From: Xestospongia bergquistia
Lineage: Eukaryota > Porifera > Demospongiae > Haplosclerida > Petrosiidae
DNA length: 64,000 nt
Assembly: GCA_963965975.1 (NCBI GenBank)
Contig: OZ014416.1
Location: 6,758,001-6,822,000 of the forward strand
Reading direction: 5' to 3'
A model generated the notes under the pieces. It was not told the origin of the DNA, did not search any database, and saw only the letters and a program-made list of their open reading frames with translations. This document shows, one piece after another, positions 684 through 45,290 of this stretch. Both the position numbers and the translations under genes were made by a program. The first letter of the stretch is position 1, and the number at the start of each line of letters is the position of its first letter.

Positions 684-3600
684 TGGGGAAATACTCCAGT
701 ACATATGGCACATTGGTATGGTTGTTATAACATTGTTGAGCTCTTACATTCTTTTGGAGGAGATATGGACCAAGTTAGAAATGTAAGTGATAAATATAAT
801 AATATATTTACTGTATATGATGACATGGACATAGTGACCTTACATGTTATGATATATTATAAACATGACCTAATTAAATGTGGGTACATGTCACAGTTAT
901 AATATATTATTAATTTTAACAGGATGACTTACTTTTGACTTCAGCTAAAAATGGTGATATACATAATGTAAATGTAGCACTTACATCAGGTGCTAATGTC
1001 AATGTTCATCATGGTGGTTTATTGAAGGTTAGTATACTTATTATAGTATATGTATTTTTAGTACTACTTGTGGTCTGTTAGTACATACTTTAAAGTACTA
1101 CTATAAAGGTGAGTTCACAAAACTACACTTGTATATGTGTCATGTTGTGTTCTTAGTGTTGTGTTGCACAGTATCATTACTGTTCATATAAACAAGAGGA
1201 AGCATTTAAACTAAAACTCCGCCCTTGTAATTACTCTATATTACTGCAAAATGGGGACTGAAGTGTTTTTGCTTGCTTTGCTTTACAGATGATAAAGAAG
1301 GCAATAGAAATGAATAACAGTGTGGGTGTGTCCTATATTTACTCAACGGCTGCAACAAGGAGAGTTTCACAATTTACCTTAAGAAATGTGTCTGGCTGGC
1401 CATTTTCTTCCATGCATTTTCTCTTGCATCATTGTAGCTTTTGCTAGATACTTGCTGTAAAGTTTGCAACTCAATAACAATATACTAATCAAAACTTATG
1501 AATATTATAATTCAAGTACAAAGTGCAAAGTCCAAGGGATACTACAACTCCCCCCAGTTCTGGTGGACACAGTTCAACCAGACTCCATATCAGTCAGGTG
1601 GTTTTGACTGTCTAGAACTTCTCCTTAGTTTAGATGTATCACCGGAATTAGTAAACTGAGTAAAAGGTGTCTCATCTCTACTCGAGTGCTCATCTTGACT
1701 TGGAAGTCTGTTTAAGTCATGTCTATTTCTTCTGACAACTCCTGTTGATGTTCAAGAGGTAGTTGAGGATAGTTTCACTATTTCAATAAATCTGGAATAG
1801 TAATCCACCACAAGTAAATATGATACTTGTTTCCATTCAAACAGATCAGTCCCAACTTTTTGCCAGGGTGTATCTGGTAGTTCTGAAGGGCATAATGATT
1901 CAAATCGTGGTCGTTAAAACTGACAACATACTCTACACTTCTTGATATATTCTTCTATATCTACATTGATTCCAGGCCACCAAACTGAACAGCAAGCTCT
2001 TTCCTTACATTTGTGTATTCCCTGATGACCTGAGTGTAGTTGTGACAGCACTTCTTGTTGAAGATCTTTTGGGATCACTATTCTGTTACTTGTCATCATC
2101 AGTCCATTATGAATTAATAAATCTCCAAATCTCATACACTTCTTCTTTCTCCTCCCTTGCTGAATTTCCTTTTTCCATTTCTGTAGTGTTGGGTCTTTCT
2201 CTTGATGTTCCTTTATCTCGGTTAATCTTCTATCTGTTGCTGGCAGATGGCTCACTATAAGATTGATATATGCTTCTGTCTCTTCTTGCAATTCAGAAAT
2301 TCCAGTGTTTGGTAATGGTGATCTTGATAGGAAATCAGCAGTATTCAGTTCTTTTCCAGGAACGTGTTTAATGTCATATTGGTATCTTATCATCCGGAGA
2401 CGAAATCTTTCTATTCTTATAGGTAACTCTTCCAAGTTTTTCGTTGACAGCAAAGGAACTAATGGTTTGTGATCTGTTTCTAGTAAAAACTTGGACCCCA
2501 GAAGGTATTGATTGAGTCTTTCACAGGCCCAAGTCAGTGCTAGTGCCTCTTTTTCTATTTGGGCATATCTCTGTTCACACTCAGTCATAGCTCTTGATAC
2601 ATATGTAATTGGTCACAAACTTCCATTTGGTTGTTTCTGACGTAACACAGCGCCTAGTCCATATGCAGATGCATCAGCAGACACTATCATTTGTCTATTA
2701 GGTTCAAATAATGCCAAACATTTCTCTGTACATAATGATTCTTTGCTTTTGCTAGATACTTGGCACAAGTAAAGGAAACAGCAAACAGCTTCAATACCTT
2801 TCTCATTAGCTAGAATGGTCTCTATATTAGAAATTGTAAAATAAAATGTCACCATTACTACCTACTATTATAGTTATTTAAACAGTTGATAACATTTACC
2901 TTTTTTCATTTTAAACAAGAGGAAATTAGTGTCCTACTAGTTTAAATTTTGTTCATTAGTAACAGAGAACATCGGCTATTGTCCACTATCAGAATTTGAA
3001 CATTATCAGTCATAGCTTAAATGAAATGCGGTGCTTAACCTTGCTGTGGTCTCATCCAGAGACTTCCTTATCCTTTCCAAGATGATTATTGATGACTCAG
3101 CATTTCTCTTCAATCAAAGGGAAAAAAGCTTTGCCTTTTAGTCCATCTACTGGGTACTTTGCACTCTAATTGACAAAAAATCTAATACTTTCCAACTTCT
3201 TAGTAAAAGTTAGTGATTCTCCAATGACAGCTATGGCGCTAGTATTTTTAGTTTGCGCTCAATGTATTGACAAAGATAACTGCCAAAAGTTAGTAAAAAT
3301 GGCATAACTTTCCAAAGAAGTATTTTTGCAAAAATTCTCACTTTGAAAAGTTAGAAAATGTCGTAAGCTGTATGCAAGAGTTTTTTATTGAATTTTCGAG
3401 TCTTCACTGAAACCTGTGCTTTTTTCAAAGGTTTTTCAGACTTTTAAAGCTTTTTGTTCATTTGACGCTCCTTTTGGAAGTATTTTTAAGAATTACAGAA
3501 GTTTTGCTACCGTCCACTATAGTTTGGTGGCTACCAGTCCCGTATTTGCCAAGTTAAAGCAGTTCAAAGTAGTGATGTTTTAGTTATGAAATTTAGTTTT

Positions 3601-16700: not shown

Positions 16701-19700
16701 AATATAGTCTGTATTTGTTGTTAGAGATGGCACTGAAGACTAGGCATTGAATATTAATAATTAATGAACCCAATATAGTGGCATCCCTGTTAAAGTTCAT
16801 AATATTAGAGCCATTATTGTATTAAATATAATTTAGTCTGTTGTAGAAGCTGCTGCTACAAAGAAGAGGATTGAAACATAATTGGAATGCTTTCCTGAAA
16901 TGCCAAGATACACTTTTGCTACACATTTGTAGTTGGCAGGTGCTTCTTACAAGCAATACAAACTTGAACCATTTTTACATATGAAAACTTCTTCATGTAC
17001 TTAGTTTCAAGGTATTGTTCAATGTGAATTTAAGTGATATTATGCTTGACATCTTTGTTACCATCAAATGTAAAAATACCTGTATGGTGTCAACATCAGC
17101 CATGACAATTCTAATGTTAACAAACTCTTCTGTAACTATTCATATGTAAACTGGTGGATAGGTCCTTAGACTCTCTCTTACTATGTCTTCCCTAAATTTT
17201 TGGCTTTCCTTCTCTTTCCTTTATGCTTACCTTAATAGACTCTTTTCAAAATAAATTTTACTTTGTTGTGTGAGACTTTGTATCTACCTATGCTAAGGCA
17301 TGAAACAGTGCTCTACAAGATCAAAGAGTATATTTATGGTAACAAGTTTAAATCAGTATCAATACCTTATAGATACACTGAGGTGTAGTTGACTTTGTTA
17401 ATATGATTCATAGTCTTAAATCCACAGATACTATGAGTGATCTTTGATACAAATTTTGTATCTATACATCAACTTTATTATTGAACTTATACCTGTGGTA
17501 ATTTTTATTCAGTTAACTGACACCTATTAATATATTTGTCAGTTCATGTCAATTACCTCATGTTTGTGACAATTTAAATGCCTTTCAAAACGTAATACAT
17601 CAATGTTATTTACATCCTGCACAATTTTTTGTCTTAATGCTTGACTCTTACTACAAAGCTTGCTTTGCAAGTTATGATATTCAGTATTTTTCATATTTTT
17701 GCCACCTAGTTTATGATGAATATTAATTTAAATCACCATCCATTGAACTTTTCCATGCCTGATATATCTAGTGCCACAACATTTTTATAACCTTAGAGGA
17801 AGTTATAGCAAGCTGCTGCAAAAATTATTGTATAAGAATTGTCATTATTAAATGTTCTATAGAGGCTATTTCCAAGCTTTTTAATGTGCTACTTTTACTG
17901 TCAAAGTACTCAAATTTAAAATAGATATTACTGATGTAAAAGCATAATCATATTGGTATAAAATTAGTGATTGCAAATTTTTTAGTTTTATAGTTATCAT
18001 AGTTCAAACAAAATTAATTATAAAAAAAAGAAAAGAACATTGTGTCATATCTAAATAGACAATGCTGTTGACTACATGATTGTTGTTCTCAAAAACACAA
18101 AAGCAATTATGTAAAATTGACATGCATGTTAATTGACATGTGACCCTAAACAATCCTAGATCTGTTCATATGTAGTATGTCAGGTAATTAAAACAAACTA
18201 GTCATGAAAGCAAGATACTTCCTCATATTAAAACAAATGACAACACTAGCAGTCAATAGAAGTATTACTAATTAAAACAACATTATCTTTCAGTCATTAT
18301 ACTCTGTTTGTAACTGTTATATTATTGTCAATGATAAAGAAATAGATAGAGCTAATTTGTGTTATTGATATTTTCAGTTTTAATATCTTAATATCTTTCT
18401 CATCAATTTGCCAAGAATCCATGAGATATTAATAATGATATAATTATAAAATACAATATTATAGCAAATTATTTTGCTCCATGTTCTCATCTAGACCTAT
18501 GTGTTATGTGTTTACTTCTTTCTCTAGTATGGCAATACTCTATTGCATTATGCCTGCTCATGTGGTAGTAAAGACACAATACAATACCTGCTAAATGATG
18601 TGAAGTTAAATCCACTGGCTGTAAACAATCGTAAACAAATACCATTAGAACTTATTCCACGAAATCTTGAAGACAGATTCCAATTTCTAAAATTGTTTCA
18701 ACCATTTCTTCAACATAATATAGAGTATCCAGTAGATTCATATGCCAAACTATTCCTTTGTGGAAAAACAAATGCTGGTAAAAGCTCTTTAGCTGCTGTT
18801 ATATCTTATCGTGCTGACAAGGGGTCTTTTCATGACTACAATGCAGAAGGGTGTGTTGAAGGTGTTGTATTACAAACTACTGGAATTGACTACCACAGCA
18901 TTCATAGTATAGAAGTAGGAAATGTTGTAATCTTTGATTTTGCCGGACATGCAGAATATTACAGTAGCCATGCTGCAGTATTGGAAACTCTTTTGTTGAG
19001 GTCACCAGCTGTCTTTGTAATTGTAACTAATCTTACTGATGAGAAAGAGATAATAAAGAGGGACCTGTACTTCTGGTTTAATTTTATTGAGAATGTTAGC
19101 ACTAATTTAAGTAACCCCAGTCAAGTTATCATTGTTGGAAGCCATATCGATCTTTTGCCACATGAAAATGATTACGAATCTTTTATTAATGAAATTGCAA
19201 GTAGTGCCATTCGTGATCAAAATTATACTGGTTTCCTGGCAATGGACTGTCACAGATCAGGAGGTAAAGGTGTTAGAAAATTTATGACTAAACTAAAGAA
19301 AAGCTGTGAAGCTGTTATTGACAGAGAAGATAAAATAAGCTACCACTGTCATTGTCTACATGCTTTCCTTCAACAGCTTCAACTTGTTGCTATTAGTTTA
19401 GATGACCTCTGCTCAAGAATTGAGAATATGAATGAGCCATGTCTTTTGTCAGACCGATCAACTGTGTTGAAGTTCTTGACCATTCTTGGAGAAAAGGGTC
19501 TTGTCTTATTTTTAGGAGATTGGTTAATTATCGACCAAAAAGCTCTTTTAACCGAGGTAAATGGTATTCTTTTTAATGAAAGCATTGATCGTGTTCGTAA
19601 ACCAGTTACCAGTAACACTGGTATCATGCCAGTATCCACATTAGCTAAACTATTTCGCAACCACAATGCAATGATGCTAATTCGCTTCTTAATAAGTCTA

Positions 19701-22700
19701 CAATTCTGTCACCAAATCAATTCTCGTTCTGTTAGTAACATCGCAAACAATATACCATCTGAAGAACCTCCTGTAACTGAAGATACCAAATACTTATTTT
19801 TTCCTGCACTTATTAAGGATGAGAGGCCCTCACCAGTCTTCAATACAACAGATGGATTTGGTTGGTGTCTATGGTGTCCAGATCCTCAACAATTTCTACC
19901 TATACGATTCCTTCATACACTACTTCGTCACTTGGCCTATACTCGTTGTCTTCCTCCTGACAACACTGATATAACTGAAACCAACATTGAAGTCAATGAA
20001 CTGTATCGTGATTGTATTATGTGGAAAAATGGTATATATTGGAAAGATGAGAATGATATTGAGGTGATGGTGGAGGTTACTGAGCACAATAGATGTGTTA
20101 CAATTTTAGTTTCATACTGTAGTTCCTTGAAAAGTTATGAGATTCGTACATCTCTCATTAAAGAAGTACTTGGTCTTAAGAACATGATATGCTCATGTCA
20201 TGTGCAGCAGTTTGTTATTCCTCCTTGTAATATGAACGATGTTGTTGACAAGGAGCTGGGACAACGTATACTCTATTCCCTTAGAAAAGTAGCCCTTGCA
20301 GTTATTACCAAATGTCCTATTGGAGATGTAAACAATAAAACTGCTACAAGTGTTGACATCAGATCTGTTGTGGGTAAAAATGAACCTTTCCTCTGCATTG
20401 CCCCCATTGTCATTGAGGTTCTCTTTACAGACAGCAAAAATGACATACTCTTGCCACCTGACTACATCCAACATATAGAGGAAGCATGTAGGGAGATGAT
20501 GCCAATGTCAAGTGATCACTCTCATCTCTCAGTGAGGGAACGTCTCAACCGATTTAGCATTTTTACTGGTCGTAATCCTTTGGTAAGTCAATAATTTTAA
20601 CAATGTTTAATTGTTTGGATATTGTACATAGACTATATCCTCTCGACCTATTAGAAAGGAAGAAATACATCATCTCTCTGAAGATGTTTTTTTTATTAGA
20701 AAGAAAGGTAGGTCATTATACTTCATCATCCTCTCTTACTTAAAATTTACTTATTATTGCTTATAGAATCTGTCACCACTAATCCTGATAAACAGATACA
20801 CTTATCAAGTACATATGATATATCAGGTATGTTTGGTATTCATGTTTGTTACATTCATTATGTTGACAACTAATGATACAGTATAATAAGGTGATAATAT
20901 TAATGACATGTAATATTTTTACTTTAGACAACTACCTGATTCAAGCTAGTTATATATAGAATGCTATAGCTTTTACTAAAAAGAACCAATTACACTGGAA
21001 TCGATTAACAGATATCATTTTGACTGCATATGTTTAGTTTTATAAACAGTTTAATTTACTTTTTGTATTTAGTTAATAGCAACATTACAAAACATTGTAA
21101 ATTGCTTTATATTTCAATACTCCTGTCTGTCAAAAATGTTTACACAGCCTGTTTGTTTATTTACTACAATAATATAGGTAATCAAGAGTCAAAAGAGGGT
21201 ACATTCACTGATGATTTTACACATTTTCCTAAGTTATGTAAGTTAATGGAGTCATTTCTGGACAATTGTAAACTTAATTTTCCTGTTAGTTGTCCAGCCA
21301 AAACGACATGAAGTTTTAACTCAACTAGTATGTATTGATACTTTATGGCGTAATATTGGTAATGGTCTTGGAGTCAGTTTTAATACCCTTCAAGGTTTGG
21401 CTGAATCCAACCAGTCAAATCAAGCAAAACTCGACCAGGTTATTCAGAAGTGGCTGGACATGAGTGGTAAAGATGATGGTGCTCCTGTCACATGGATCAC
21501 AATATTAGATCTTCTAAAGGGACCACTTGTTGACAACAAAGCCCTAGCTATGAAGATATACCAGTCATTGAAAGAAGAAAGTTCTAAAGAACAGATAGCT
21601 CCAAGTAAATATACAATATAGACACATGATGCTGATACATAAATCTTTTAGTCTTGATGTAGTTAATAGATGTGGTGGTCGTATTATTAACATTAGCATT
21701 AACCTGCTCTGTAGGTCCTAAAATACTATTGTTTATGTTTCAGTTTTTGTGATGAATTGAAAAGCTAATATATTTTTAGTGATTTTTGTTGCTCTGTCTG
21801 TTGCATAGATATCTTTGTTCTGACTCAATAAGGATTGAATGTATATTTTTATAGCTGCTCACGTATCATATATATTTTAATGTACATATTAATTATAATT
21901 AAAGGCTATGCAACTATCCACATATGATGTTTGTATTGTGACATTTTACAAGAGATTTGTATACAACTTGTCACATTTTATGACGTTAACTTTATATCCT
22001 ATAGAACTTGCTAAGGAATCAGCTACTGCTAATACAATTGAAGGATATAATCCTGACAAGTTACCTATAGGACATCAGGTATGATTTATCTTATTTTATA
22101 GGTCATGTTAATGTTGGTCATTTATAAATTCAGTTCCTTAACAATATAATAGACAATGGTTACATCATCAAATCTTTCCTATTGTAAACATAAAACACTA
22201 TTTATGACATATTTATACTCTACTCAATAGCAACAATTCTCACAAGAACTTTCAAATGAGCCCAAAGAAGCTCTCCTTGTAGCTGGTGATAGTACACAGC
22301 AAGGTAATGTAAGACATCTAACTAATAATCACTGCATATAATATGTGTGAAAACATCAACTAATCAATTGTTCCACCTCTATAGTCTATGTTGTTATCGT
22401 TAACATAGTGATATTAAGTAGTTTATTTATGTTGATAAAATGTTGTATTGCTTGTTGAAATGAAAAGGTATTAATTCTCTTTTGTGTTCACTAAGTAACC
22501 TTTAACTCAGTTACTATTCCTTTTCTTGGTATATTGTGTAGGCACTTCTGAGCCATCAGAAATATTTCTGGATTATTTTGCTGATATTTGTGAAGCCATT
22601 GAAGTTAAACCCTTTTTCATTGTTAACCGCCTCCTTACTGCTAGATTGATATCACCAACTTTCAAAGAAGACGTAAAAAGTACGATTGGTGATAATTATG

Positions 22701-25082: not shown

Positions 25083-28000
25083 TCAATGTTGCTTATGTAC
25101 ATGACACAAATAGGATATCAATTTTTCTTCAATGACCACACCCTTCTCTTTCTCCTCTACAGAGAGACAAAATACTTCTTCATTAAGTTTATCTTTTTCA
25201 ACAACAGTCACTTTCTCTTTCCTTTGTACTAGTGTATTAGCAACTACAACCTATATAGAGGAGTATAGTGGTCATATGTCAATGTAGATATTATATAAAG
25301 ACATATATAGTTAATTACAAATCATCACTGTATCATTCATACAATGATAATGGAACATAAATATGTCCATAAGTGCATAATGAAATAAGATGAAAGGAGA
25401 TAGGAACATAAAACTTCCAAGCTATTGATTAAAATGTCAAGTAGAGGTCTTGGAAGTCATGTTGATATTAATTACTTATAAATATTAATATTGTGATTGT
25501 ACATCAACATCATCTAGGTAATCTAGCTTCAACAACACTGATCTTATGTATGTTCATGACTAAAAGATACATTCTGCCTCAAGACAACTACTATTATAGT
25601 CTATAACAGGAAATATTTATGACTATTTGTGATACATTATATTGGTAAGTCACATGACTACTTTATTGTTGTCTAGTCTAAATATATTAATTCCTAAAAT
25701 CTTAACCTGGCATTTTAATAAATGACATCTTTCCTCATGGTTCACTCTTAATATGTCTTAGGCAGTGAAAACAGTCATATTGAAAACTCTCACTGACATT
25801 GACTGTTAAAAGGTGATGTTGTACATGTACATATACTAGGTCATATTGTACATGTTAACTGTATGCTTTGGTGACAACTTTACTAGAAGGCAAATAGCAT
25901 ACATTCTTCTACTTTACTGACTTACTTGATGTCCATATTTTGTCAGAGCTTTTCTAGCTCTACTAACTAAAATACTCTCATCAGTTTCTAACTAATAACA
26001 GATTAATATCATATAATATCAATAGAATAGACATACTTTAAAGGAGACAATGAAAGCATTAGGTGACCAGCGTTGAGTTAATACTGCTATTAACTTTGGT
26101 ACTTGTTGTAAGTGAAGACTCAATGATGTTGATGATGATATCTTATGTTCAACCTAACGAGAATGTAGGAGGGATTATGTTTGTATACACAACAATGAAC
26201 ATCAAGTTCCTCTTCTGATGTTAGTATTATATCTATAGTATACTTCTTAAAGTGGCTTAATATTACATGTATACTAATTACGGAACCTATTTAAAATTTT
26301 TTCCATTGCATAAACAACTACATTTATTACATTTATTAGATGCAAGTAATAGTAAGTTCAAAGTACAGGTACAACTCTACTTGTTCTCATGTTATAACAT
26401 ACAACACAAGTATCTTTTATTAACACATAGTCTAGTTAAGTAGCTCTTCCCTTTGAAATGGGTCTAGAGCTAAAAAGAATTCCAATAAGATCTAATCTTT
26501 ATAATGCCTTTGCTAAATTATTACAAACACTACATACCATGTCATCAGGATGTATAAAGAAGTCGGACACAGCTGCTGCCAGATATATCATATGTTGAGA
26601 GGTGTTCATTAATGGACTAATAACATTAAGATAATGTACATAGTCAAATATAGTAGTGAATGGGACACAATATAACAAGTTAGTTGACTTGATCTAGAGT
26701 AGGAAAAATAACAATGTCAGAGAATAATGATAAAATTGTTTGTTAACCTAATAAGTCACTTCACTCATTTCAAGCCAAAACAGAAAATAGTTTAAAGTCA
26801 AGTGTCAATCCCAAATTGCTTTTGGCACAACATGATAATAGCTCTTCATAAACCAAATGTGTAAGCAAATGAAAACAAAACTCAAGAAATACTTCTCGAA
26901 CAAGTCACTAACATGGGCAAGTAAAATGATCACATAATACATAAAATGATCACATGACACATCAAATGATCACATGATACATAAAATGATCACATGATAC
27001 ATACAGATGTACATGTGCTTGTTGTTTATGAGTTTCATTAGTGGTTTGTGGAATGTAAAGAGTTCTAAAGATAGAATGATAGATATACATGTGTATACCC
27101 ACGCTTTGACACATGTACTACATTCTTCTGTTATAGGGTACACCATTCATGGCTAATATTGCAATATGTCTACAATATTATATACATGATAGAATGAACA
27201 GTATCGCAGCATGGAAGGGTATCATTAACACAATATGGGTGTGGTCTTATAGATTGGACACGATATTTAGGACCCAAATTGAACTTTTTCAGTTCTAGTC
27301 TTGTTGTAGTTGTCAATATAATTATTATACTTACTTGTTTATATTTCTCTAATATATGTTTTATTTTATCACTGACAATAATGTCTCCAGTACTACTGAT
27401 ATCCATTAAGTCAAGAAGTGAAGATACAGTAAATGGACAATGGAAAGGTCTAAAAGAAGACTGTCTATATAAAAAGATGACTGCATAGCCCTGAGAGAGA
27501 AACTGTCTGACAAAATCATATAATAGTTAAGGAAATAGAATGATTAATTTAACATGATTAATGTGTAAAACTACCTTTAACAGTGTCTATGTCCAATACT
27601 CCATCATGTATAGCATATAGTATATGTACATATGATCTACTAAAGATGAATTGTGTAATGATAATATGTTAGGATACTCTGCTGATAGAGAACCTCTAGT
27701 TCCTGTACTGAAGTTGTCAAGATATCGAACTGTTTGTTTTTCTAGAGGTACTGTTGTGCCACCGGACTGTATGTGTTGAGAGAAAGAGAGAAAGAGAGAG
27801 AGAGAGAAAAAGAACCAATTGAAGGTCTATTTTGGTAATTATGCAACAATTTTACTCTTTTTTTTCAAACGAACATAAAAAATCAGATAATCTTAAACTT
27901 AGTTAGTTATGAGTACTTATGAGTGCCAACTTATGACCACAATGTAGACATTTTTTCAAGATCACTCCAGCCAATTCTATTCAGTCTATCTTTGGCTAAT

Positions 28001-29027
28001 AAGCCTCTCATAATTGTTAACATCTCATCTTTATCCGGTATCATCTCTTTAGTCTCTTTACACATATCACAAGGTATTTCATGAAGTATTACATGTATTA
28101 ACTCTTGAGGGGTTTCTGCAACAAAGGGACAGAACCCAGACCATAGTTCATACATAATACACCCAACAGACCACAAATCTGACTGAAAGGAGAAAAGAGA
28201 CAATGTCACTGACTCAGGAGAAAGATAAAAAGGAGAAGGAAAAGTTGACAACGAAATTCTTTTTGTTTTTAATACCAGTTCTGACAAGTCGAACGCATTC
28301 TGGCTGTCATCAGTAAATTTAGAGAAGTATTGTTTAATGCCTTCTTGTATGTACTCATTAGTCCACTGTTTATCACCATGACGATGAGCGAAACTAAAGT
28401 CATACAATTTTAATGTACTATTTGAATCTAATAGTATCTTTGATGGTATTAAGTCACACATAACATAACCTTGAGAATGAACATAGTTTAATCCAAGTAA
28501 TATATCAGTTATAAAGTGCTTTAGTTTATCTAAAGGTATAGGCCCATCTAGTTCCATTACATCTGCTAGTGTCCCTCCACTAGCTAGTTCAGTGACCATC
28601 CATACATGTTGAGGTGATTGGTACCATTCCAGAAACTTCAATATGTGGGTGTGGTCAAGGGAGTGGAGAATACGAACATTAGCTGCTACTTGATCTAGTG
28701 ATAATCTATCATAGCGATGAATGCTAACATAGGCAATTGTCGACTTTCTTCTTCCTTTAAATGAAGTCAATAAGTCAGTATGGCATATCTCTCCATAAAG
28801 AAGGTAGTTCTCCATCATCGGTTTCAAAAACCCGCCCAACAGTTACGCGCATGCGCATAAATTACACTACAAACTACTGTACAACTTACAGTAACAAGAA
28901 CTATTCGACGTCTTGTAGTTTGGTGTTCACGAATAAACACTGTCACTTGATCTCGAACTGTTTCCAAATCTGCTGGAACTGGAGATGACCGGAGAAAGTC
29001 ATCAATAGTGATATCAGCGATTGCCAT
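25083..29027 (-). CDS. PPCS: Phosphopantothenoylcysteine synthetase (PPCS)
   Basis: Joins 4'-phosphopantothenate and cysteine, the second step of coenzyme A synthesis, in the cytosol. Exons in transcript order: 29027-28890, 27766-27678, 27506-27335, 26693-26538, 26153-26037, 25991-25926, 25250-25083. These total 906 bp, 301 residues, close to animal PPCS length. Family landmarks are plain: [11 protein letters not shown] at the exon 1/2 join, [38 protein letters not shown] and [13 protein letters not shown]. All splice phases agree. Intron 1 contains a complete intronless kinase-like gene on the same strand. The ATG at 29027 is the only one in frame near the start. It shares a 113-bp divergent promoter region with NDUFA4. 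Confidence 0.95.
26923..27002. repeat. 20-bp minisatellite, four copies
   Basis: Four head-to-tail units of the type AAAATGATCACATGATACAT with one or two changes each, in PPCS intron 3. Each unit contains the palindrome TGATCA. Confidence 0.92.
27931..28818 (-). CDS. ULK4: ULK4-like pseudokinase, single exon, nested in PPCS intron 1
   Basis: Single uninterrupted frame of 295 residues from ATG-ATG at 28818/28815 to TAA at 27931; the N-terminus [10 protein letters not shown] followed by [13 protein letters not shown] matches what I know of ULK4. Kinase landmarks are degenerate as in that family: no glycine-rich loop, no lysine at the usual beta-3 place, [10 protein letters not shown] instead of HRDLKPxN, and DFS instead of DFG. 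APE-like LSPES and the [15 protein letters not shown] helix are kept. The product probably acts as a scaffold, not as a phosphotransferase. Full-length animal ULK4 has a long HEAT/ARM-type C-terminus, which is absent here; the frame ends right after the kinase fold. An NRF1-type site lies 28 bp upstream of the start. Alternative: a retrocopy fragment. Identity as ULK4 is likely; independent expression is inferred. Confidence 0.8.
   Translation of the reverse strand: MMENYLLYGEICHTDLLTSFKGRRKSTIAYVSIHRYDRLSLDQVAANVRILHSLDHTHILKFLEWYQSPQHVWMVTELASGGTLADVMELDGPIPLDKLKHFITDILLGLNYVHSQGYVMCDLIPSKILLDSNSTLKLYDFSFAHRHGDKQWTNEYIQEGIKQYFSKFTDDSQNAFDLSELVLKTKRISLSTFPSPFYLSPESVTLSLFSFQSDLWSVGCIMYELWSGFCPFVAETPQELIHVILHEIPCDMCKETKEMIPDKDEMLTIMRGLLAKDRLNRIGWSDLEKMSTLWS
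28847..28856. promoter_or_regulatory. NRF1-type palindrome GCGCATGCGC
   Basis: A perfect GC palindrome in an otherwise AT-rich intron, next to a GC-box-like CCCGCCC (28831-28837). It is 28 bp upstream of the kinase start codon and 34 bp inside PPCS intron 1. The motif is the known NRF1 core-promoter element of animals; its use here as the nested gene's promoter is inference. Confidence 0.65.
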
Positions 29028-32718: not shown

Positions 32719-35700
32719 ATGGCTGAATCGTTAAAGAGCATACTTATAGCTTTTGTTGTTTTTCTAATTTATTATTTGTTTGTTACTATACTTGATGAGG
32801 TAGTTTCGAATGTTGGTCATTCACTATTTCACTATGAAGAGTACATTGTACACAATTATCGGTTCCTGAAACTCCCAGTCGTTGATTCTAGATCTGGTTT
32901 TATTTTTTGCCTGTCTTTATTTAGTATCTTCGCTTCACCTTTACAAACTCCTTTTAAAAGATGGATTTTATCTACTATATTCATTCTCGTCCCAGTCTCT
33001 CCTTGGATTATTTCAATTTCACTAGCCACCATACCCACTGTAGCACATATTGATGTTCTTCATACTGCAATAGTATCACTGAGGTTACTTTTGTATGCAT
33101 TTGTGGCTAATAAGCTGGTTGGAATGACAATAGGCAAGCCTCATAAAGACATTGGCAACATGACAGGTACTGCTATCACTTTACTTTTGGTACTGTTACA
33201 GTATTTGTTTAGACTACTGTGTTAAGTTTTAGCCACAGGCATGTATATAATAGTAATAGCTCTAGACTCATTCACATGCACTGAACTTATGCATATATAA
33301 TATTAATGCTAAGCAATTATATATGCATAAGTTCAATTGCATGTGAATTTAGCTGCGGCATCAATATTGTGCGATCATACAAAACTGAATTAAATTTTCA
33401 TGTCTTTATAGATGAGGAACACTACTTAAAGATATACAACGAACAACTAGAAAGAAAAGAAACTTTAAAAGTAAACATTATCCAATGTATGACTATTGGT
33501 CCACCAACTGTTGGTAAAACTACATTGAAAGAACAACTTCTTAAAAGGAATAAACGTAATAAGAAAAAGTCTGCAAATAGGACAGCACAACCTCGACCAC
33601 CTAGTAGCCCTGTTATTGAGAAAGTTAAAAGAATCCAAGTAACAATGGGTGACAAAAAAAGTGGTGGGTCAGACCTCATATATGCAACAGATGATTCCAC
33701 ATGGAAAACTCGCACATTAGATGAACAATTGGTTGCCTGCCTCAAAAAATTTCCAAATGAGTATTTAACTTCAGCTGAGATTATATTTTGGATCCTTTTT
33801 CTTATTTTGATTTGTGGAGTTCTTTATGATTACAGTACTGCAACTCTTCCCAAATTTAATGACAAACCTCGTATCATATATTTTGTCATAAATGAGGAAA
33901 AACATCGTATTGTTGAATATGAATACGCATTCAAAGAAAGGCACAAACTTTTTCAGTTGGTGCGATTTGTTAACATTATTTCTATGGGTTTTTCTTGGTT
34001 ACCCTTAATGGGTATGGTGTCAATTCTGACAATGAAAAGGATATATCCATACTTGGCAAAACTAGTTAGCAGTAAAACTGTTACAGCTGATATTGCCATT
34101 AAAGAAGTACTTAAGAAAAAAAATGTAAAGAAAATACAACCTGTTTTTGATAGAAGTTTTACCGTTTACTTCAGAGATTGTGGAGGACAGCCAGAATTCC
34201 ATGAAGTATTACCTGCTTTGTCATCGCAATCTACCTTGTTTTTTCTTGTCTTCAATCTTAGTGAAGGTCTTGACACTCAATATAAAGTCACTTATAAAAC
34301 TAGTAATGGTAAAGTATCTGATCCATATATGAGTAGTTTTACTGTTAAACAAGCTCTTCTACATTGTCTAGCTAGTATTAGCGCAATAGGAAGTTACTGT
34401 AAGCCACATACAAGTAATTTTTGGTTCAAACGTAAGTTATTAATAATGCAATTGCATGAGAAAATCACTCAACTATGGAAGAAAAAGCTGAAACGAAACG
34501 TCTCTAATGTAATAATCATTGGAACTCACAAAGATAAAGTTGGCAAGAATGGAGAAGTACATACTATCATTGATCAGTTAGAAAATGAACTCATACATAC
34601 AGATTGGTACACTAAAGATATGGTTATCCCAACAGAGAGTGGTAGACTTGTTCTTGGAGTGAATACATTCAACCGAAATGATATAAAAGAAGTGAAAAAA
34701 TTGGTTAATAAACTTGCAACTAACAATGACTATCAGTTGGAAATACCTGTACCATGGTTGACATTTGAGTTTTACATCCAAAAATCAAATAAAAAGGTGA
34801 TGACTCTTAAGGAGTGTCAAAGTATTGCTGAAAAAAGTAATATTACACTTGGAAATGAGTTTGATACAGCTCTCTGGTTTCTACATAATAAAGTTGGTAC
34901 AATAAGGTATTTTAAGAATGTACCTGAATTGCAAAACATAGTCATTACTGACCCTCAGCTACTCTTTGATATTGTCACAGACTTAATTGTAAATACATTT
35001 TCTTTTGGAAAATACATTCAGAAAAGAAGTGAACATGACAGGTTTCGTTTATCTGGTCGTTTTACAAAACATCATTTAGAACATTGTGAAGCTGTTAAGG
35101 AGAAGTTATTATCAGTAGAACAAGTAATAGCTGTACTAGAACATCTTGTTATAATTGCTCCTGTAGGTATAAATGAACAGGAGTATTTTCTCCCTTGTAT
35201 TCTAGTACATGCTTCTCTTCCATCTACTCCATTGTCACATAATGATAGTGACATTCCTCCCCTTCTTATTACATTCAAATGTCACTACACTCCAAGAGGT
35301 ATCTTTAGCTCACTCATTGCTAGAATCCTTCTCGATAACAAAGATAAATGGGAACTCTCTTCAGAAAAAATCTTCAGAAATCAAGTTAGACTTCGATTTG
35401 TCAAGTCCGGTCATCTTGTAACAATCACTAACTTTTTTAGATTTCTTGAGATTGCAGTGAAACCTCCACATGGTTTTAGAACTACAAGTTCAAGTGATAA
35501 TATCCATGTTTCTATCCAATGCTTATTGTCTCATTATCTAATTGAAGTTAGAAATCAACTTAATTATGGATGCACTGCTGACCATTTATTTGGATTTTAT
35601 TGCAAAGAACACAATGATAACAATACTATAGAAAGTCATATTGCTGTTTGTAATGACAACAAGAAACCCACATATACAAAATGCTATAGAGAAGAGCCAA

Positions 35701-36311
35701 CAGTTCACCTAACACCACTACAAATGATGTGGTTCAATAAAAATTGTAAGTTAAATATAGTACATGTAATTATATATACATTTGTCAATTTAGTTACTAT
35801 TATAGTACAGTATATTATATTATAGCTATATAATAACACATCCAAGTTTATGAACATGTTTATGAACACTATTAATCACTTTTCTATAATTAGAAGCTAT
35901 TAATATTTGACAATTACATTATATTGAATTTCTAACATTTTCACAGCAGATTTAGAAATGACTCCAGACAATCCTATATTACCTGATGGACCACTAAGTT
36001 AGTATCTCTATTTGTTTTTCAGATATGTATTTTACAATGTCTCTTTGTTAGATGAGTGTCATTTGTCTGCTTTATTACAAGTTGTAAATGAAGTTACAGA
36101 TTGGGAAATATTGGGTATTCATCTTGGTATTAAAGATGTTGTAATTAAGGATATCAAAGCATCTAATCATTATCAAACTCAAACAGCTCGTAAAGACATG
36201 TTAGTCAAGTGGCTACGCGGAGGAAATGCAAAGAGATCTGATTTAATTAAGGCTCTCAAGATTATGAACGAAAGTTCTATTGTTCATAAAATTGAATATA
36301 CAGCTGACTAA
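32719..36311 (+). CDS. Gene A: membrane Roc-like GTPase with COR-like region and death domain
   Basis: Exons 32719-33166, 33412-35745, 35947-35997 (NAGNAG acceptor, so 35950 is possible) and 36052-36311; 1030 residues, phases agree. Residues 1-149 hold about four hydrophobic helices. The P-loop GPPTVGKTT is at 179-187, the G3 motif DCGGQ at 405-409 and the G4-like GTHKD near 518. Between G1 and G3 are roughly 220 residues that include two membrane helices (about 273-287 and 335-355), an insertion I know in no standard Roc domain. A COR-like region follows (PQLLFDIVTDL, HLVIIAPV, YFLPCILVHA). The last exon is a death domain (TDWEILGIHLG, MLVKWLRGG). Probably a membrane-anchored GTPase switch signalling through death-domain contacts (inference). 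No homologue I can name. Gene B is its tandem paralogue. Confidence 0.85.
33270..33349. repeat. Inverted repeat, about 31-bp arms
   Basis: 33270-33299 (TTCACATGCA, AACTTATGCATATATA) is matched in reverse complement by about 33318-33349, leaving a loop of about 18 bp, within intron 1 of gene A. It could form a stable hairpin in RNA or be a tiny MITE. Confidence 0.8.
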
Positions 36312-37652: not shown

Positions 37653-40600
37653 ATGGTGAATTGTGACTGTTTAAAGAGTTTTTTTAAAGGCTTGTTCCTT
37701 TTCATTCTGTATTTACTTGTATCTGAAATATTAAGTGAGATTGTGTCGTTTGTTGGGGCACTGATTGCCCCAGTTGACCACAAGCTTGCACGTAGTCCTC
37801 TTAACCATCTGCTACGTATACGTCTTAGATTTTCTTTACCTACTGATGATTTGGATTTCTGGTCTGTTATTCTTTTTCAGGTAAATATCGTAGTTACATC
37901 TATCGTCTCTGGCTTAGTTATAGCTGTAGTGAGAAGGCGTTCCAAGACTTTTATTTCAATCATGGCCTCCTGTCTTGTGCCCTGTCCTTTTATCATTTGG
38001 TTGTTAGTGGACAGTTGTGTAAGTGTCTTTAACATTGTAATGGTGTCAGTCATGTTTTTCCTCTACGTGTCTACATCTGTCATACTGGTCTGGATTGTAA
38101 TGAAAAGAATTAATGCCAACAAAACAGGTAAGAATATTATGCTTAGAGTATATATGGTTACTTCATACTCCAACTGAGCACACAATAGGAATCTGTGAAA
38201 GCTGAAGCATGCCAATTGCCAAATGGTCTTGAAAAGGGAGCAAGACTCAGTAGGCAACGTATAATTAGCCACATATGAACTGAATCTTAGAGTATTTCAT
38301 GGAAAAGTGGTTCCAACTGATCATATTTGTCCTAGGGATATAGTTATATTTGGTCAACTTAATATTGCTGTCCTAGGACAGATTGTTGATACGATTAATA
38401 GTCATACCTATGGTCTCATTTTATTAGGACCCAAATGGCAGCATGTGTTTGTGCTATGAAGAAATAGTTTGTGACATGCCTCAAGCTTCTGGTTTCTTCT
38501 GAATCTGTCAGTACTTGAGGATGTCAAGTTGCAATCTTGCTACGAAAATGAGTTTAACTTAACTTAGGGACTGCATGCATGCATGGTACATATCTCTAAC
38601 ACTCAAACTGTATCCCTGGGTGTGTGTGTTGAAGCTATGGAAAACCTAGGTATTAACATATGGTATATATAATAACTAGCAAGTGTTTCTGTAGAGAGGA
38701 TATTATAGGAAAAAGGGAAGTGATCTCTAGCTCATTCAGTTTACATATGATCATGTATATCCACAGCATCTACCAACTTGTATAATTTTATGTCTTTAAA
38801 CATAATTCAAAATAGTGAAATGCTGTTTAACATGAAGTTTGTTAATACAATTCATAATTTACGTAGTCTCACAAAGCCAGACCCTGTTGCTTAGAGAGAA
38901 AGAGTTTGGTAGGGCATCCATATCATATAGAGAATTTGTTTCTCTACCCTCATTGCTTCCATTGGTTTAGACATAATAAATATTGAAATAGGTATATCAC
39001 AGTATGACTATTGTGAGTATTGATAATGCAAATTAAGTAAGTCACTTTATTTTTTAGATGAACAACAATACTTTCATATCTATCGAGAACAATTAAAAAA
39101 CAAAGACTCCTTAAAAGTGAATATTATCCAATGTATGACTATGGGTCCACCTACTGTTGGTAAAACCACACTGAAGAAACATCTACTTGAAGTGAATACT
39201 ACCACAGTTGAGGCAGAACATGACCGACCACCTAGTAGTCCAGTTTGTGAAAAGGCTAAAAGAATTCAAGTCATCATGGAAGACAAGAAAAGTGAGCAGT
39301 TATGTTCTATAGTCACAGTGAATGAATACATATGGAAAATCCTGTCATTGGATGAAGAAATAATTGGTTGTCTTAAGAAGATGGCAAAAAACAATGATAA
39401 ATATATCACTGCAGCTGACGTATTGTTTTGGACTCTTTTTTTACTACAATGAGCAGAAGTCTTTCTTGCTTATTTGCATATTTACAAATCTGTGATGAAA
39501 AATTCAATGACCATCCAATACCAATAACATTTGACCATACCAATTGGGGTCACCGTCTCATATTGTTTCTATGCATTTTCTTTCCTTTTCTTATGTTTTT
39601 AGTGGGATTAATAAGGCTAATACCAAGCTTTACTGCTGATGGTGCTGTTAAAGAGGCTCTTCGAAATAAAGATATCAAGAAAGTTCAACCTCTGCTTGAT
39701 CAAACACTTACTATCTACTTCAGAGATTGTGGAGGACAGCCAGAATTCCATGAGGTATTACCTGCTTTTTCGTCACAGTCTACCTTGTTCTTTTTTGTCT
39801 TCAATCTTAGCGAAGGTCTTGACACTCAATACAAAGTCACTTATAAAACTAGTGATGGTGATATATCTGATCCATACGTGAGTAGTTTTACTGTTAAACA
39901 AGCTCTTCTACAATGTCTAGCTAGTATTAGCTCAATTGGAAATTATTCTAAGCCACAAATGAACAGACTAAAGTCATTGTTTATATGGTTATGGAAGAAG
40001 TTAATTCAATTATGGAAAATGCAAGTAAAAGGCATTATATCTAAAGTAATTATTATAGGAACTCACAAAGATTTACTTGGTGACACTGTAGAGGCTGATG
40101 ATGTGGTTCTTCGAATGAACAGTCAGTTAGAAGATGAACTAAAAGGCACAGACTGGTACTCTAAAGACATGGTTATACCAATAGAAGGTCGTAAACTTCT
40201 CCTTGGAGTGAACACCTTCAGTCCAAATGATATAAGAAAATTAAAAGATCTAGTGAATAAGGTAGCCCTAAATGGAGACTATCAGTTAGAGATACCAGTC
40301 CCTTGGTTAGCATTTGAAATATGTATACGTAAGTTAGGGAAAAAGGTAATGTCTCTTAAAGAATGTCAACGTCTTGCTAATGAGTGTGAAATGTGGACTG
40401 AAAAAGAAATTAATGCTGCTCTTTGGTTTCTACACAATAAAGTTGGGACAATAAGGTATTTTAAAAATGTAGCTAAACTGCAGAATGTAGTCATTACTGA
40501 CCCTCAGCTACTCTTTGATATTGTCACTGACTTAATTGTGAACACATTTTCTTTTGGAAAACATATTCAGAAAAGAAGTGAACACGACAGGTTTCGTTCT

Positions 40601-42371
40601 TCAGGTCGTTTTACAAAGCATCATTTAGAGCAGTGTGAAGCTGTTAAGGAGAAGTTATTAACAGTAGAACAAGTAATAGCTGTTCTAGAACATCTTGTTA
40701 TCATTGCTCCTGTTGAGTCTAATGAACAAGAGTATTTTCTCCCTTGTATTCTAGTACATGCTTCTCTTCCATCTACTCCATTGTCACATAATGATAGTGA
40801 CATTCCTCCTCTTCTCATTACTTTCAAATGTCACTACACTCCAAGAGGTATCTTTAGCTCACTCATTGCTAGAATCCTTCTTGATGCTAAAGACAAATGG
40901 GAACTCTCTTCAGAAGAAATTAAACGAAATCAGGTTATATTTTGTCTCGTCAAGTCTGGGCATATCATCACAATCACCAACTTCTTTAAATTCCTTGAAA
41001 TTTCAGTTAAACCTCCTCAATACTTAAGAAAAAAGGAAAATGACTATGTCTCTATCCAACATTATATCTCTCAATGTTTAGCTTATGTTAGGGATCAGCT
41101 AAACTACACAGTCACTGCAGACCATTTGTTTGGATTTTATTGTAATGGTTTACACGACAAATCCATAGATCCTCATCCTGCTGAATGTAACCTCAAGGTT
41201 AAACCCACATATAAGAGATGTTGCTTTAAAGGCAGTCTTACTGCAAGCCTTTCACCAAAAGAAAAGATGTGGTTTTATGAAGAATGTAAGTAATAGAGTA
41301 CAATAAGTTGACAAAGGCACATTCAATATCCAATCAATAATATTGTTTAAAGTAAAATTGTCTAAGGTGGCTATCAATGGATTGTTGACATATTTTATTT
41401 ATATTTATAATTATATAGGTGATGAATGTACATCTTCTGAGCAAGTAAGTCTATCCTATCCTCAAGAGCCTAATTGTCTAGGTAAAAAGCACTGTATGAA
41501 TAAATAGGGTACTAGTTTATATATACTTTATTTTCAGATATAACACATCTTGATATTGTCTGTGACTATTTGAATGAACAAAAATTCCCTAAATCATCCT
41601 GGCAATCTCTTGGTTTTCAGTTAGGTTTGTATCAACCCACACTAAATGATATTGACACAAAGAACAGAGGAAATCCAGCAAAATGTCTTCAAGATTGTCT
41701 TGCTGCGTGGCTAAAGGGAGAAGACAAAGTGACAGAAAAAGGAGGGAGCACATGGTCTACATTAGTCACAGCATTAAACAAGAGTAAATGAGCATTGAGT
41801 AAAGTTTGCAATTTTGATAACACCAACAGCTTTTTTACATAATACATAATTTTTATTACCTTAGAAATTAGTAATTTTTGTTGTAATGGCTACTATAAAT
41901 GTGAAATTAATGATCATTTTAGACTAATGCAAAATTTGACTGTGTTGACACATTTTGTTTTAAATATAAAAGTGATCTAATACTGTAGGACACATAATGT
42001 AATGTTATAATTATTGATACAATGACCAAGTTTATATATTGCTTGTAAGTTATGATCAGTTATGTTAATAATTTTAAAAGTTGTTTCCTCCTGTTACTGA
42101 TTAGTGGCACAACTAGCAAGTGTGTAGTTTACTGCATATATTACAATAAGCTATCAAAGCTATACCATATAACTATTTCTATTAATATACATAAAGACAT
42201 GCCACTTTTTTAATTCTTGTTTTCTAGTGTCAATTTCTCAACAAAGTGAAATCTCACAGAAAGGTATAATGACATGAGTAGTCAATTCCATAGTATATTT
42301 ATTGCATTAGTAAAGAAAACTGTATGTGATATTTTCTTCTTTGCATTAAATAATTTGCTATGCACATGCAA

Positions 42372-42454
<83 letters not shown>

Positions 42455-44319
42455 CACTGTAAAATTGATTGGTTAATTTAACTAATACATGTTTATAATA
42501 TTACCAAAATATACTCTCAGTACCTACTCTTTGCATTCTTTTCTTGTAGACTCAACATACATATACCAACAAGCTAAGAGTTTGGATATCTCTTCACCAA
42601 TTGCAGGTATGTCATCAATAAAGTTGACTTCTTTAATGAGTAAAATTATTCCTTATTAACACTCAACTGTTTATTTATCTTATATAGCGAGGACAGTGTC
42701 CACTTGGTGGTATTCTACTTTACCAATTCTCCTTATCATATTGTTCATTGGATTTGTCTGTTTTTCTTCTACTAGCAATCAAAATGTGTTGCTTGGTAAG
42801 TTGTGTAGTCCATGATATCATACATTAACCTATTTCTTAGCTTCTTTACCAGGAGTTGAAGTTCTTGCATCTACTAGACTTCTAGTTGTAGGAGGTCGAC
42901 CAAGTCAATTAGAATGGGAGGAATATGGTCTTACTTTAGACATACCTGATAATGCCCTTCCTCCTGGATTCTTAAGTGAAATTAGAGTACGAGTCAGTGT
43001 ATCTGGTCCTTATGTCTATCCTAATTCTGAATCCTGGAAACTAGTCAGTGCTGTGTACTGGATATCGAGTAGTAAAGACTTTATCAATCCTGTAAAATTA
43101 GGAATATGGCATAATATTAGAGGATTAAAGAATAGTTCTGACTTACAAGTTGTCACTGCCAAAGATACCACTCAGAATGGAACTTACATATTTGAGAATG
43201 TACCCGAAAAGTTTATTTTAAAAGATTCCTTTGTCTACTTGAACATTAGCCATTTCTCACAATATGCTGTAACATCATCAAAATTAAATCAAACAAGCTT
43301 TGATGGTAGCTTACTTTTTCGGAAATCTCCTAAAGGCAAATTTATTTGGGAATATAGTTTAATAGTGTACATGCACCAACCAGATGGAATTGTTGGAAGG
43401 GTATGAGTCATCTTTTTTTAATACAATGGAATGTTTTTCTGTATTAATAGCTACTAGATAAAGCACTATATACTGGTTGGACACGAGATTTGCTGGATTT
43501 TGTTATAGAAATTGAAAAAGATAAAGATTTCATTACTTTAAATACAAGTTTGGCTAGTACATATTTGAATGGATGGAAAATTAAAGAGAGAAATCCACCA
43601 CTTAAAGTAAGATTATAAATGAATTCAATAATATGATGTTTTATACATATATAGTATCACAGGAAGCAAATAGAAAGTTTTGAGTCTATTCGTAGTAATA
43701 TGCAATTCTTGTTAATTTGGACTGGACAAGGACCTCCTACAACACAATTTATTGATCTCCTATTACATGGAGCTGAACAACCAACTGTTATTTCATTTGT
43801 AACAAATTCAGGTCAATAATGATTTTGTATCTTTCTTAGATATGAATGCATTGATGTGTTTCTTTATTTTTAGATGATGATAGATATGGTAATAAAGTAA
43901 TTGGAGCAAGTGGAGGTATATGAATAAGTGAACAGTCATATATTTTTTTTTTCTAATTCAAAGAAATTTATATATTTTTTTCTACTTAATGTTTAGGAAT
44001 TATTCCACCATCTGAAGACTTGTTATTTCATACTCGTAACATTTATCAAGTTCTACTTTTTTGTCATCATCTTGGTATAGAGGATGTCGACTGTGAGAAG
44101 ATTGAATGTGAAAAACCTAATAGTGTTGAAGAACAAAAAATAATTGTATTAAAGACCTGGCAAGAAAGAGGAGAGCGAACATGGAGAGACTTCATAAGAG
44201 CATTAGCTATGATGAAACGATGTGTTTTAGCAAAAGAGTTAGCAAGAGAACACAATGTTTACTTTTATAATTCTGATAATGCTCTTGAAATGTGTGGAAT
44301 GACTCTTAATGATTATTGA
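37653..44319 (+). CDS. Gene B: membrane Roc-like GTPase, death domain, TM, ZU5, UPA-like, second death domain
   Basis: Exons 37653-38127, 39058-41285, 41419-41481, 41538-41783, 42228-42263, 42550-42606, 42688-42795, 42853-43400, 43451-43606, 43655-43811, 43874-43915 and 43997-44319; about 1479 residues if the frame is continuous. The N-terminal two thirds parallel gene A: four hydrophobic helices, P-loop GPPTVGKTT (188-196), membrane hairpin, DCGGQ, GTHKD, COR-like region. Exon 41538-41783 is death domain 1 (SSWQSLGFQLG, CLAAWLKG). Exon 42688 adds a membrane helix (LPILLIILFIGFVCF). Exon 42853 is ZU5-like (GLTLDIPDNALPPG), the next exons are UPA-like, and the last is a second death domain (TWRDFIRALAMM). 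The tail order matches UNC5/PIDD-type tails. One base is missing from the frame at the T run 39436-39442: real mutation or sequence error. If the exon at 41538 is not spliced, translation stops at 41789-41791 after death domain 1. Two adjacent genes remain an alternative. Confidence 0.75.
38128..39057 (+). other. Gene B intron 1
   Basis: Separates the membrane exon from the GTPase exon, at the same place and phase as in gene A but longer (930 bp against 245 bp). No coding frame or recognisable element. Confidence 0.6.
42373..42454. repeat. (TA)n microsatellite
   Basis: Long interrupted TA run in the gene B intron between exons 42228-42263 and 42550-42606. Confidence 0.95.
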
Positions 44320-45118: not shown

Positions 45119-45290
45119 AGATGTTGTAATTAAGGATATCAAGGTAGGTAATCGTTGTCAATCTCAAGCAGCCTGTAAGGACATGTTAGTCAAATGGCTA
45201 CAGGGAGGAAATGTAAGATCTGATTTAATTAACGCTCTCAGAATGAAAGTTCTATATAAAATTGAATATACATCTGACCAAGCATAATGA
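45119..45290 (+). pseudogene. Half death domain, duplicate of the gene A 3' end
   Basis: Aligns with 36132-36311 of gene A from DVVIKDIK to the C-terminus. Two deletions (3 and 12 bp) keep the frame and the original stop is changed, so the frame runs six bases further, to a TAA formed from the next three bases. The first helices of the domain and a splice acceptor are missing. Downstream flank is also duplicated. It is a relic of a third member of the A/B array; transcription is unknown. Confidence 0.8.

Follow-up and report, generated by a model that had tools for sequence, protein, structure and literature searches.

A family of Roco GTPases in the genome of the sponge Xestospongia bergquistia has probably turned into integral membrane proteins, in which a hairpin of two predicted membrane helices occupies the interswitch of the GTPase domain and belongs to a six-helix module coupled to the switch. 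A further-reaching version, offered tentatively, is that the hairpin forms the tip of the interswitch, that membrane and nucleotide state are mechanically one, and that the proteins are six-pass receptors in which a single chain segment both senses and switches, having evolved independently of the KAP ATPases, in a diversifying immune or cell-death family. The window analyzed is the whole 64,000-nucleotide stretch at positions 6758001-6822000 of contig OZ014416.1 (C6), which is AT-rich (GC 0.26-0.35 per 2-kb step), and the genome searched comprises 146.46 Mb in 21 contigs.

Gene A, which carries most of the evidence within the window, lies at 32719-36311 on the + strand and has four predicted exons with a total of 1030 residues. 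Its G motifs were read in the sequence, the likeness of the segments flanking the hairpin to those of relatives was judged by eye, and the Death domain was assigned to the gene via predicted splice sites. Hydrophobicity was taken as the Kyte-Doolittle mean (KD19) and octanol sum of the two best separated 19-residue segments between G1 and G3, and both hydrophobicity and charge were scored on simple scales rather than by trained predictors. The features of gene A, in window coordinates, are:

32719-33166, + strand, exon 1, with four predicted membrane helices and a predicted splice donor
33412-35745, + strand, exon 2, predicted Roc GTPase domain with the hairpin, then COR (COR-A 36.3 bits, cut-off 35.3)
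33498-33524, + strand, G1 or P-loop, GPPTVGKTT
33597-33614, + strand, probable G2, PPSSPV (switch I), a putative assignment of residues aligned to the S-T of other Rocos
33702-33752, + strand, helix-like segment 5′ of the hairpin, W..xxDE..
33774-33830, + strand, TM5, predicted first helix of the hairpin (KD19 2.39)
33831-33974, + strand, loop between TM5 and TM6, predicted from charge counts to be non-cytosolic
33975-34031, + strand, TM6, predicted second helix of the hairpin (KD19 1.64)
34086-34121, + strand, helix-like segment 3′ of the hairpin
34176-34190, + strand, G3 or switch II, DCGGQ
34521-34535, + strand, G4, GTHKD
35947-35997, + strand, exon 3, a short linker placed by predicted splice sites only
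36052-36311, + strand, exon 4, Death domain (PF00531, E=1.1e-10, 41.9 bits, cut-off 22.6)

The sequence-only reading that preceded this work had described a gap of about 220 residues between the P-loop and DCGGQ of gene A, holding two hydrophobic helices. The gap is 226 residues in a single open frame, and the two hydrophobic stretches lie between the motifs at about 33774-33830 and 33975-34031.

The C6 family is assigned to the Rocos by its COR domain and motif order. G1, the putative G2, G3, and G4 stand in the order found in Ras, and COR (PF16095) follows the GTPase domain in both gene A and its neighbor, gene B (36.3 and 38.0 bits against a cut-off of 35.3). The Pfam Roc model, PF08477, scores 22.1 bits in A against a cut-off of 27 and aligns only from within the insert onward, a shortfall probably due to the insert; B's main frame gave no PF08477 match, and NCBIfam gave no match over cut-off. 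A profile of ten sequences of the membrane family matched 13 long-insert relatives over their full length (E=1.4e-93), and a profile of 13 relatives matched 3dpu, the Roco protein of C. tepidum, over the COR part (E=5.8e-9). Against the Roc domain of LRRK2, the membrane-family profile gave collinear but weak matches to the G1, G3, and G4 pieces (best E=0.0063), with 23 LRRK2 residues between the G1 and G3 pieces compared with 178 profile positions. Viral contigs and prokaryote genomes yielded pattern matches, none confirmed as relatives, and phages yielded no match.

The hairpin had been placed between G1 and G3, which it is, although the finer order is G1-G2-TM-TM-G3. Spacing from G1 to G2 is 23 residues in the canonical relative L046 (with DFGGQ as its G3), 23-32 in 26 distinct long-insert relatives (a count reached with a loose G2 pattern that missed the G2 of L041), and 28-38 in the membrane family; spacing from G2 to G3 is 26, 116-251, and 153-191, respectively. 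With the first interval near normal and the second expanded, the insert is placed after switch I and before beta3, so that by homology the predicted hairpin sits at the beta2-beta3 (interswitch) turn. A profile from G1 to beta2, searched against the PDB, brought up generic P-loop proteins for the most part and gave no position for the insert. The expectation that an ordinary Roc domain has a G1-G3 gap of 40-60 residues suits L046 (49) and the Roc-type GTPase encoded elsewhere in the window (58), but 27 of the 28 distinct readable Rocos examined outside the C6 family have a gap of 140-275 residues filled with polar chain. The in-window Roc, at 18543-20594 on the + strand (PF08477 27.6 bits, cut-off 27), thus provides an internal control for the short gap; by eye, ankyrin-like sequence apparently precedes it.

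What sets the C6 family apart is the hydrophobicity of the insert. Across 13 distinct copies in which G1 to G3 is readable, KD19 ranges from 1.83 to 3.32 in one segment and from 1.26 to 2.74 in the other, with octanol sums of -11.0 to -17.0 and -8.6 to -13.9. Two strongly hydrophobic segments are present in 13/13 copies by octanol (at or below -8.6) and in 12/13 by a KD19 of at least 1.6 in both, the weakest second segment being that of L016 (1.26). None of the 21 distinct readable relatives on other chromosomes has the two-segment pattern, their best values being KD 1.16 and octanol -4.3, and seven further Rocos have no segment at KD 1.6 between G1 and G3; the G1-TM-TM-G3 hairpin is therefore absent from 28/28 distinct readable Rocos examined elsewhere in the genome, out of 146 COR-A matches. 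These counts exclude L011 and L020, whose sequences duplicate L010 and L017; L031-L033, which coincide in position with L023, L021, and L025; five unreadable C6 loci; and L034 and L053, which have no readable G1. Ten ankyrin-type relatives, when aligned, look alike by eye on both sides of the insert, with the W..xxDE.. segment before it and a leucine-bearing helix-like stretch after it. The predicted hairpin appears to replace the polar, often acidic, length-variable linker of these related Rocos; the long insert is a wider Roco trait, and the hairpin, as read from these sequences, is confined to one clade.

The frame is open across the hairpin in readable copies, which argues for a coding segment rather than one that is spliced out. 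Neutral simulation at a distance of 0.45 kept both segments at KD of at least 1.6 in 0.21-0.47 of runs, so the hydrophobicity retained across the family is suggestive rather than overwhelming evidence of selection for hydrophobicity. AlphaFold2, run on the Roc region of A and two readable pieces of B, returned a model with a mean pLDDT of 35.1 and a pTM of 0.20, which was discarded.

Charge bias is consistent with an arrangement in which both parts of the GTPase are cytosolic. In seven copies of the four-helix exon, with helix positions picked by hydrophobicity (the assignment in L013 is doubtful), the frequency of lysine plus arginine per residue is 0.250 at the N-end, 0.078 in loop 1, 0.245 in loop 2, 0.056 in loop 3, and 0.191 at the C-end, a pattern that clearly predicts an N-in/C-in exon with both ends cytosolic; helix 3 is weak in L002 (1.33) and L003 (1.32). 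In 11 copies of the hairpin, some of them near-copies, the flanks have values of 0.179 and 0.176 and are net positive, and the loop has a value of 0.138 and is net negative; the loop of A itself is rather basic (9 K/R in 51 residues). Under a six-helix N-in model the hydrophobic segments show a positive-inside bias on these simple scales, and the charges taken together suggest six helices with both GTPase parts on the cytosolic side, the contrast being weaker in the hairpin than in the four-helix exon. The proposals that four helices lie upstream of the GTPase and that the chain leaves and re-enters the same side of the membrane are thus borne out by prediction in exon 1 of A and, more weakly, by the charges of the hairpin.

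Gene B, at 37653-41791 on the + strand, has the exon plan of gene A and similar splice points:

37653-38127, + strand, exon 1, with four predicted membrane helices (hydrophobic segments)
39058-41285, + strand, exon 2, predicted Roc with the hairpin, then COR (COR-A 38.0 bits, cut-off 35.3), the frame being broken near 39432-39452 in TM5
39557-39613, + strand, TM6, predicted (KD19 2.99)
41419-41481, + strand, exon 3, placed by predicted splice sites only
41538-41791, + strand, exon 4, weak Death domain (PF00531, E=0.035, 14.7 bits, below the cut-off of 22.6)

B had been put forward as a second paralogue with a gap of about 190 residues, and its motif order, TM6, and the distance between G1 at 39144 and DCGGQ at 39725 (581 bases, or about 194 codons) agree, but its first helix is frame-broken. 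A stop at 39450-39452 directly follows a T-run in the first hydrophobic stretch, and the matching frame resumes in another phase. The break at the T-run (39432-39452) is either a homopolymer assembly error or the mark of a pseudogene; an intron that would bypass the stop was considered as well. Because of this break, the two-paralogue claim rests on one intact gene in the window.

Directly 3′ of B, the region at 42550-44319 (+) combines a membrane stretch with a ZU5-like region (E=0.003, under cut-off) and a tail that is Death-like by eye and has no Pfam match; it is either a gene in its own right or an alternative 3′ portion of B. Further along, at 45120-45287 (+), is what looks by eye like a decayed copy of the Death exon of gene A. 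On the other side of gene A, a protein kinase domain at 27931-28842 (-) (PF00069, E=6.5e-37) has catalytic-loop and DFG-like motifs that look altered by eye, making it a possible pseudokinase, and an open frame at 1914-2588 (-) looks like a piece of a retroelement RNase H/integrase.

Searching this genome at the protein level produced 63 matches, and the best 20 loci all lie on C6 between 5.4 and 7.9 Mb, with 57-70% identity to A for L002-L017 and 47-54% for L018-L020. The usual plan at these loci is a multi-helix exon followed by Roc with the hairpin and then COR. G1 to G3 can be read in one open frame in 15/20 loci, which amount to 13 distinct sequences with G1-G3 distances of 186-226 residues, and cannot in five (L008, L013, L014, L015, which is B, and L018). 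The 13 copies are not independent, as L004/L007 and L006/L019 are near-copies, and L017 and L020 are pieces of one gene. In 11/20 loci, among them L005, L016, and the identical pair L010/L011, the frame that starts shortly ahead of the P-loop stays open over 728-784 residues. Of the 17 loci scanned for an open frame upstream, 15 have one with three or more hydrophobic segments and 11 have one with four or more, the scan having left out L005, L016, and L018, whose P-loops did not match the pattern; the two misses, L015 (B, whose exon is present in the window) and L017, are both loci that begin near their own P-loop. A near-full match to the Death exon lies within 1.5-kb flanks at 4/20 loci (A, B, L006, and L002), a count that omits a 33-residue Death-like match on the opposite strand where L003 and L017 overlap. 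At the second position of G2, most copies have Ser, and L010-L012 have Thr. The P-loops of L005 and L016 are altered (GPPSVGET and GPPTVGKK) in otherwise long open frames, and these copies may be nucleotide-blind or in early decay.

In a tree of the part from G3 to COR, the 14 C6 rows form a single clade with a support of 100/100, although the rooting is uncertain because the window's ankyrin-type Roc is very divergent. The simplest reading of these sequences is that the hairpin arose once, within the long-insert Rocos. The 146 COR-A matches in the whole genome, the C6 family included, several of them in tandem arrays (e.g., on C6, C10, C11, C12, and C15), represent a very large Roco expansion.

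Within the clade, median dN over all pairs is higher in the hairpin than in any other region compared, but dN/dS over all pairs is near saturation and, in the hairpin, alignment-dependent, so close pairs are safer, bearing in mind that among them are the near-copies L004/L007 as well as two sets of duplicate rows, L017/L020 and L010/L011. Among close pairs of the L003/L004/L007/L009/L017 group, without L004/L007, dN is 0.21-0.38 in the hairpin versus 0.06-0.08 in the Roc part that follows, and in L010/L012 it is 0.066 versus 0.034; L006/L019 shows the reverse, with a near-identical hairpin (0.011) and a diverged Roc (0.187). The hairpin diverges about as fast as the four-helix exon in the three pairs compared: identities in the four-helix exon and hairpin are 60% and 59% in L003/L007 (Roc after the hairpin 89%, COR 78%), 23% and 22% in L003/L010 (59% and 74%), and 92% and 85% in L010/L012 (COR 98%). 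Median dN/dS calculated with whole-gene dS is 0.33 in the Roc part after the hairpin and 0.26 in COR. Median dS rises from 0.49 in COR through 0.89 in the Roc part that follows the hairpin to 1.18 in the hairpin itself, and the low value in COR may reflect gene conversion that homogenizes the 3′ part while the membrane parts diverge. No claim of positive selection on the hairpin is made, as dN is about equal to dS and the dS of this region is itself raised.

The proposed explanation is that the chain starts in the cytosol and crosses the membrane four times, after which the first third of Roc (P-loop, switch I, and beta2) would be built in the cytosol; two more crossings would precede beta3, switch II, the base-specificity motif, COR, and, in some members at least, a Death domain. 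With the hairpin at the linker of a pre-existing interswitch insert, the core could still fold, and the six helices would act as one fast-evolving membrane module. A change in that module, such as ligand or lipid binding or the loss of membrane integrity, would pull on the interswitch and alter the nucleotide state or Roc-COR dimerization, or the reverse, and the Death domain would then recruit partners from innate-immune or cell-death pathways. Coupling of switch and membrane is plausible from the position of the hairpin, as the interswitch joins switch I to switch II. The Death domain in A and the 146 COR-A matches suggest the innate-immune or cell-death role. What the sequence shows is how the genes are laid out, which family they belong to, where the insert sits, and the hydrophobicity, bias in charge, and pattern of rates; membrane insertion, GTP switching, the direction of signaling, and the immune role are inferred.

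Three other explanations were weighed. The best of them, though somewhat unlikely, is that the hairpin consists of true membrane helices that serve as a passive anchor or targeting signal, for example to the ER or endosome, uncoupled from the switches. The freely varying length of relatives at this point (G2-G3 116-251) indicates a tolerant core, and the high dN of the hairpin fits loose constraint; yet four upstream helices already anchor the protein, leaving no need for an extra hairpin, and the divergence of hairpin and four-helix exon in step in three pairs fits helices that pack together. It is improbable that the array is largely decaying, with B and several others as pseudogenes and the hairpin as relaxed junk. 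Five of 20 C6 loci are indeed unreadable from G1 to G3, L005 and L016 have altered P-loops, and in most close pairs dN in the hairpin roughly equals or exceeds dS, but 11/20 loci keep a 728-784-residue open frame, median dN/dS is 0.33 and 0.26 in the parts that follow, and two octanol-scale segments persist in 13/13 distinct readable copies. Least probable is that the stretches are buried helices of an enlarged soluble Roc or a helical lid, a case that the sequence-only reading had named as refuting it: TM6 of A is moderately hydrophobic only (KD19 1.64, a marginal value within the range of soluble cores, up to 1.82 in A's own COR) and the flanking segments resemble those of soluble relatives, but the relatives that share those flanks carry only polar chain between them, 21/21 scored relatives have no such stretch yet retain the G motifs, the best copies reach KD19 3.32 and octanol -17.0, and the segments vary like the four-helix exon, unlike the Roc and COR parts.

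If the hairpin is confirmed, these proteins would show a Ras-like GTPase whose switch regions are separated by a membrane hairpin and would be a second, independent case, after the KAP ATPases, in which a P-loop domain has withstood being interrupted by membrane helices. The evolutionary route suggested leads from the variable polar linker of an existing insert to a hairpin. The family would also allow a direct test of how signals from the membrane could set the nucleotide state in Roco proteins, to which LRRK2 belongs, and would give an early-branching animal a candidate class of innate receptors bound to the membrane.

Compared with known Roco proteins (LRRK1/2, DAPK1, MFHAS1, and bacterial Rocos), the C6 family has the same G1-G4 order and the same succession of Roc and COR, and differs in its predicted membrane helices, of which four precede Roc and two lie within it. 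Vertebrates have four Roco proteins by the count in a review, passages of which also describe the G2/switch I motif of Rocos as highly variable in length (PMC6337361). In brown algae, ROC domains of 77-467 aa with insertions have been reported and an innate-immune or cell-death role has been proposed for ROCOs, to which DeepTMHMM was applied, with no outcome given in the main-text passages (PMC11378527); such a role is also discussed for AP-GTPase/COR proteins (PMC8195603). Within the literature searched, where subscription journals are thinly covered and sources are represented in part, no Roco with membrane helices before Roc was evident, nor any Roco or other Ras-like GTPase whose GTPase core contains membrane helices. 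The closest relatives in the same genome, the ankyrin-Rocos L021-L030, are homologous along Roc-COR and share the long G2-G3 insert and similar flanks, but their insert is polar, often acidic, and free of membrane stretches, and ankyrin repeats (3/3 tested) stand where the hairpin family has the four-helix exon.

Other GTPases provide parts of the arrangement. The helical domain of G-alpha and the interswitch toggle of Arf are inserts or mobile elements between G1 and G3 that are coupled to switching, and to our knowledge G-alpha, Arf, and MglA have no membrane helices in the insert. Atlastin, mitofusin, FeoB, SR-beta, Miro, and GIMAP are membrane-fixed GTPases with their TM helices outside the GTPase core. 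In MglA, the insertion lies between G1 and G2 (PMC4316618). Anthozoan NLRs with 3-5 N-terminal TM helices have been described, and Amphimedon NLRs may have TM domains too (PMC5094078). These NLRs resemble the C6 family as a normally cytosolic class of NTPase receptors that gained a multi-pass N-terminal membrane part, but they are not Roco GTPases and their helices are reportedly clustered at the N-terminus.

The nearest precedent in layout is found in the KAP ATPases (Kidins220/ARMS, and also PifA), in which TM segments follow the P-loop inside the NTPase domain. Going by the title of a 2004 paper by Aravind, membrane helices are reportedly inserted within the KAP P-loop NTPase domain. The Walker A and B motifs of ARMS are described as flanking four TM segments (PMC10707181), and KAP is assigned to the ASCE division, together with AAA+ and STAND ATPases (PMC9599734). 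The suggestion that no described GTPase family is built in this way agrees with the literature searched, and the KAP ATPases qualify it, having TM segments inside a P-loop NTPase domain. No KAP model appeared among the Pfam matches of the A and B proteins at E up to 1. The likeness to KAP is one of layout only, as the C6 family is a Ras-like GTPase family with the G4 motif GTHKD and a COR domain.
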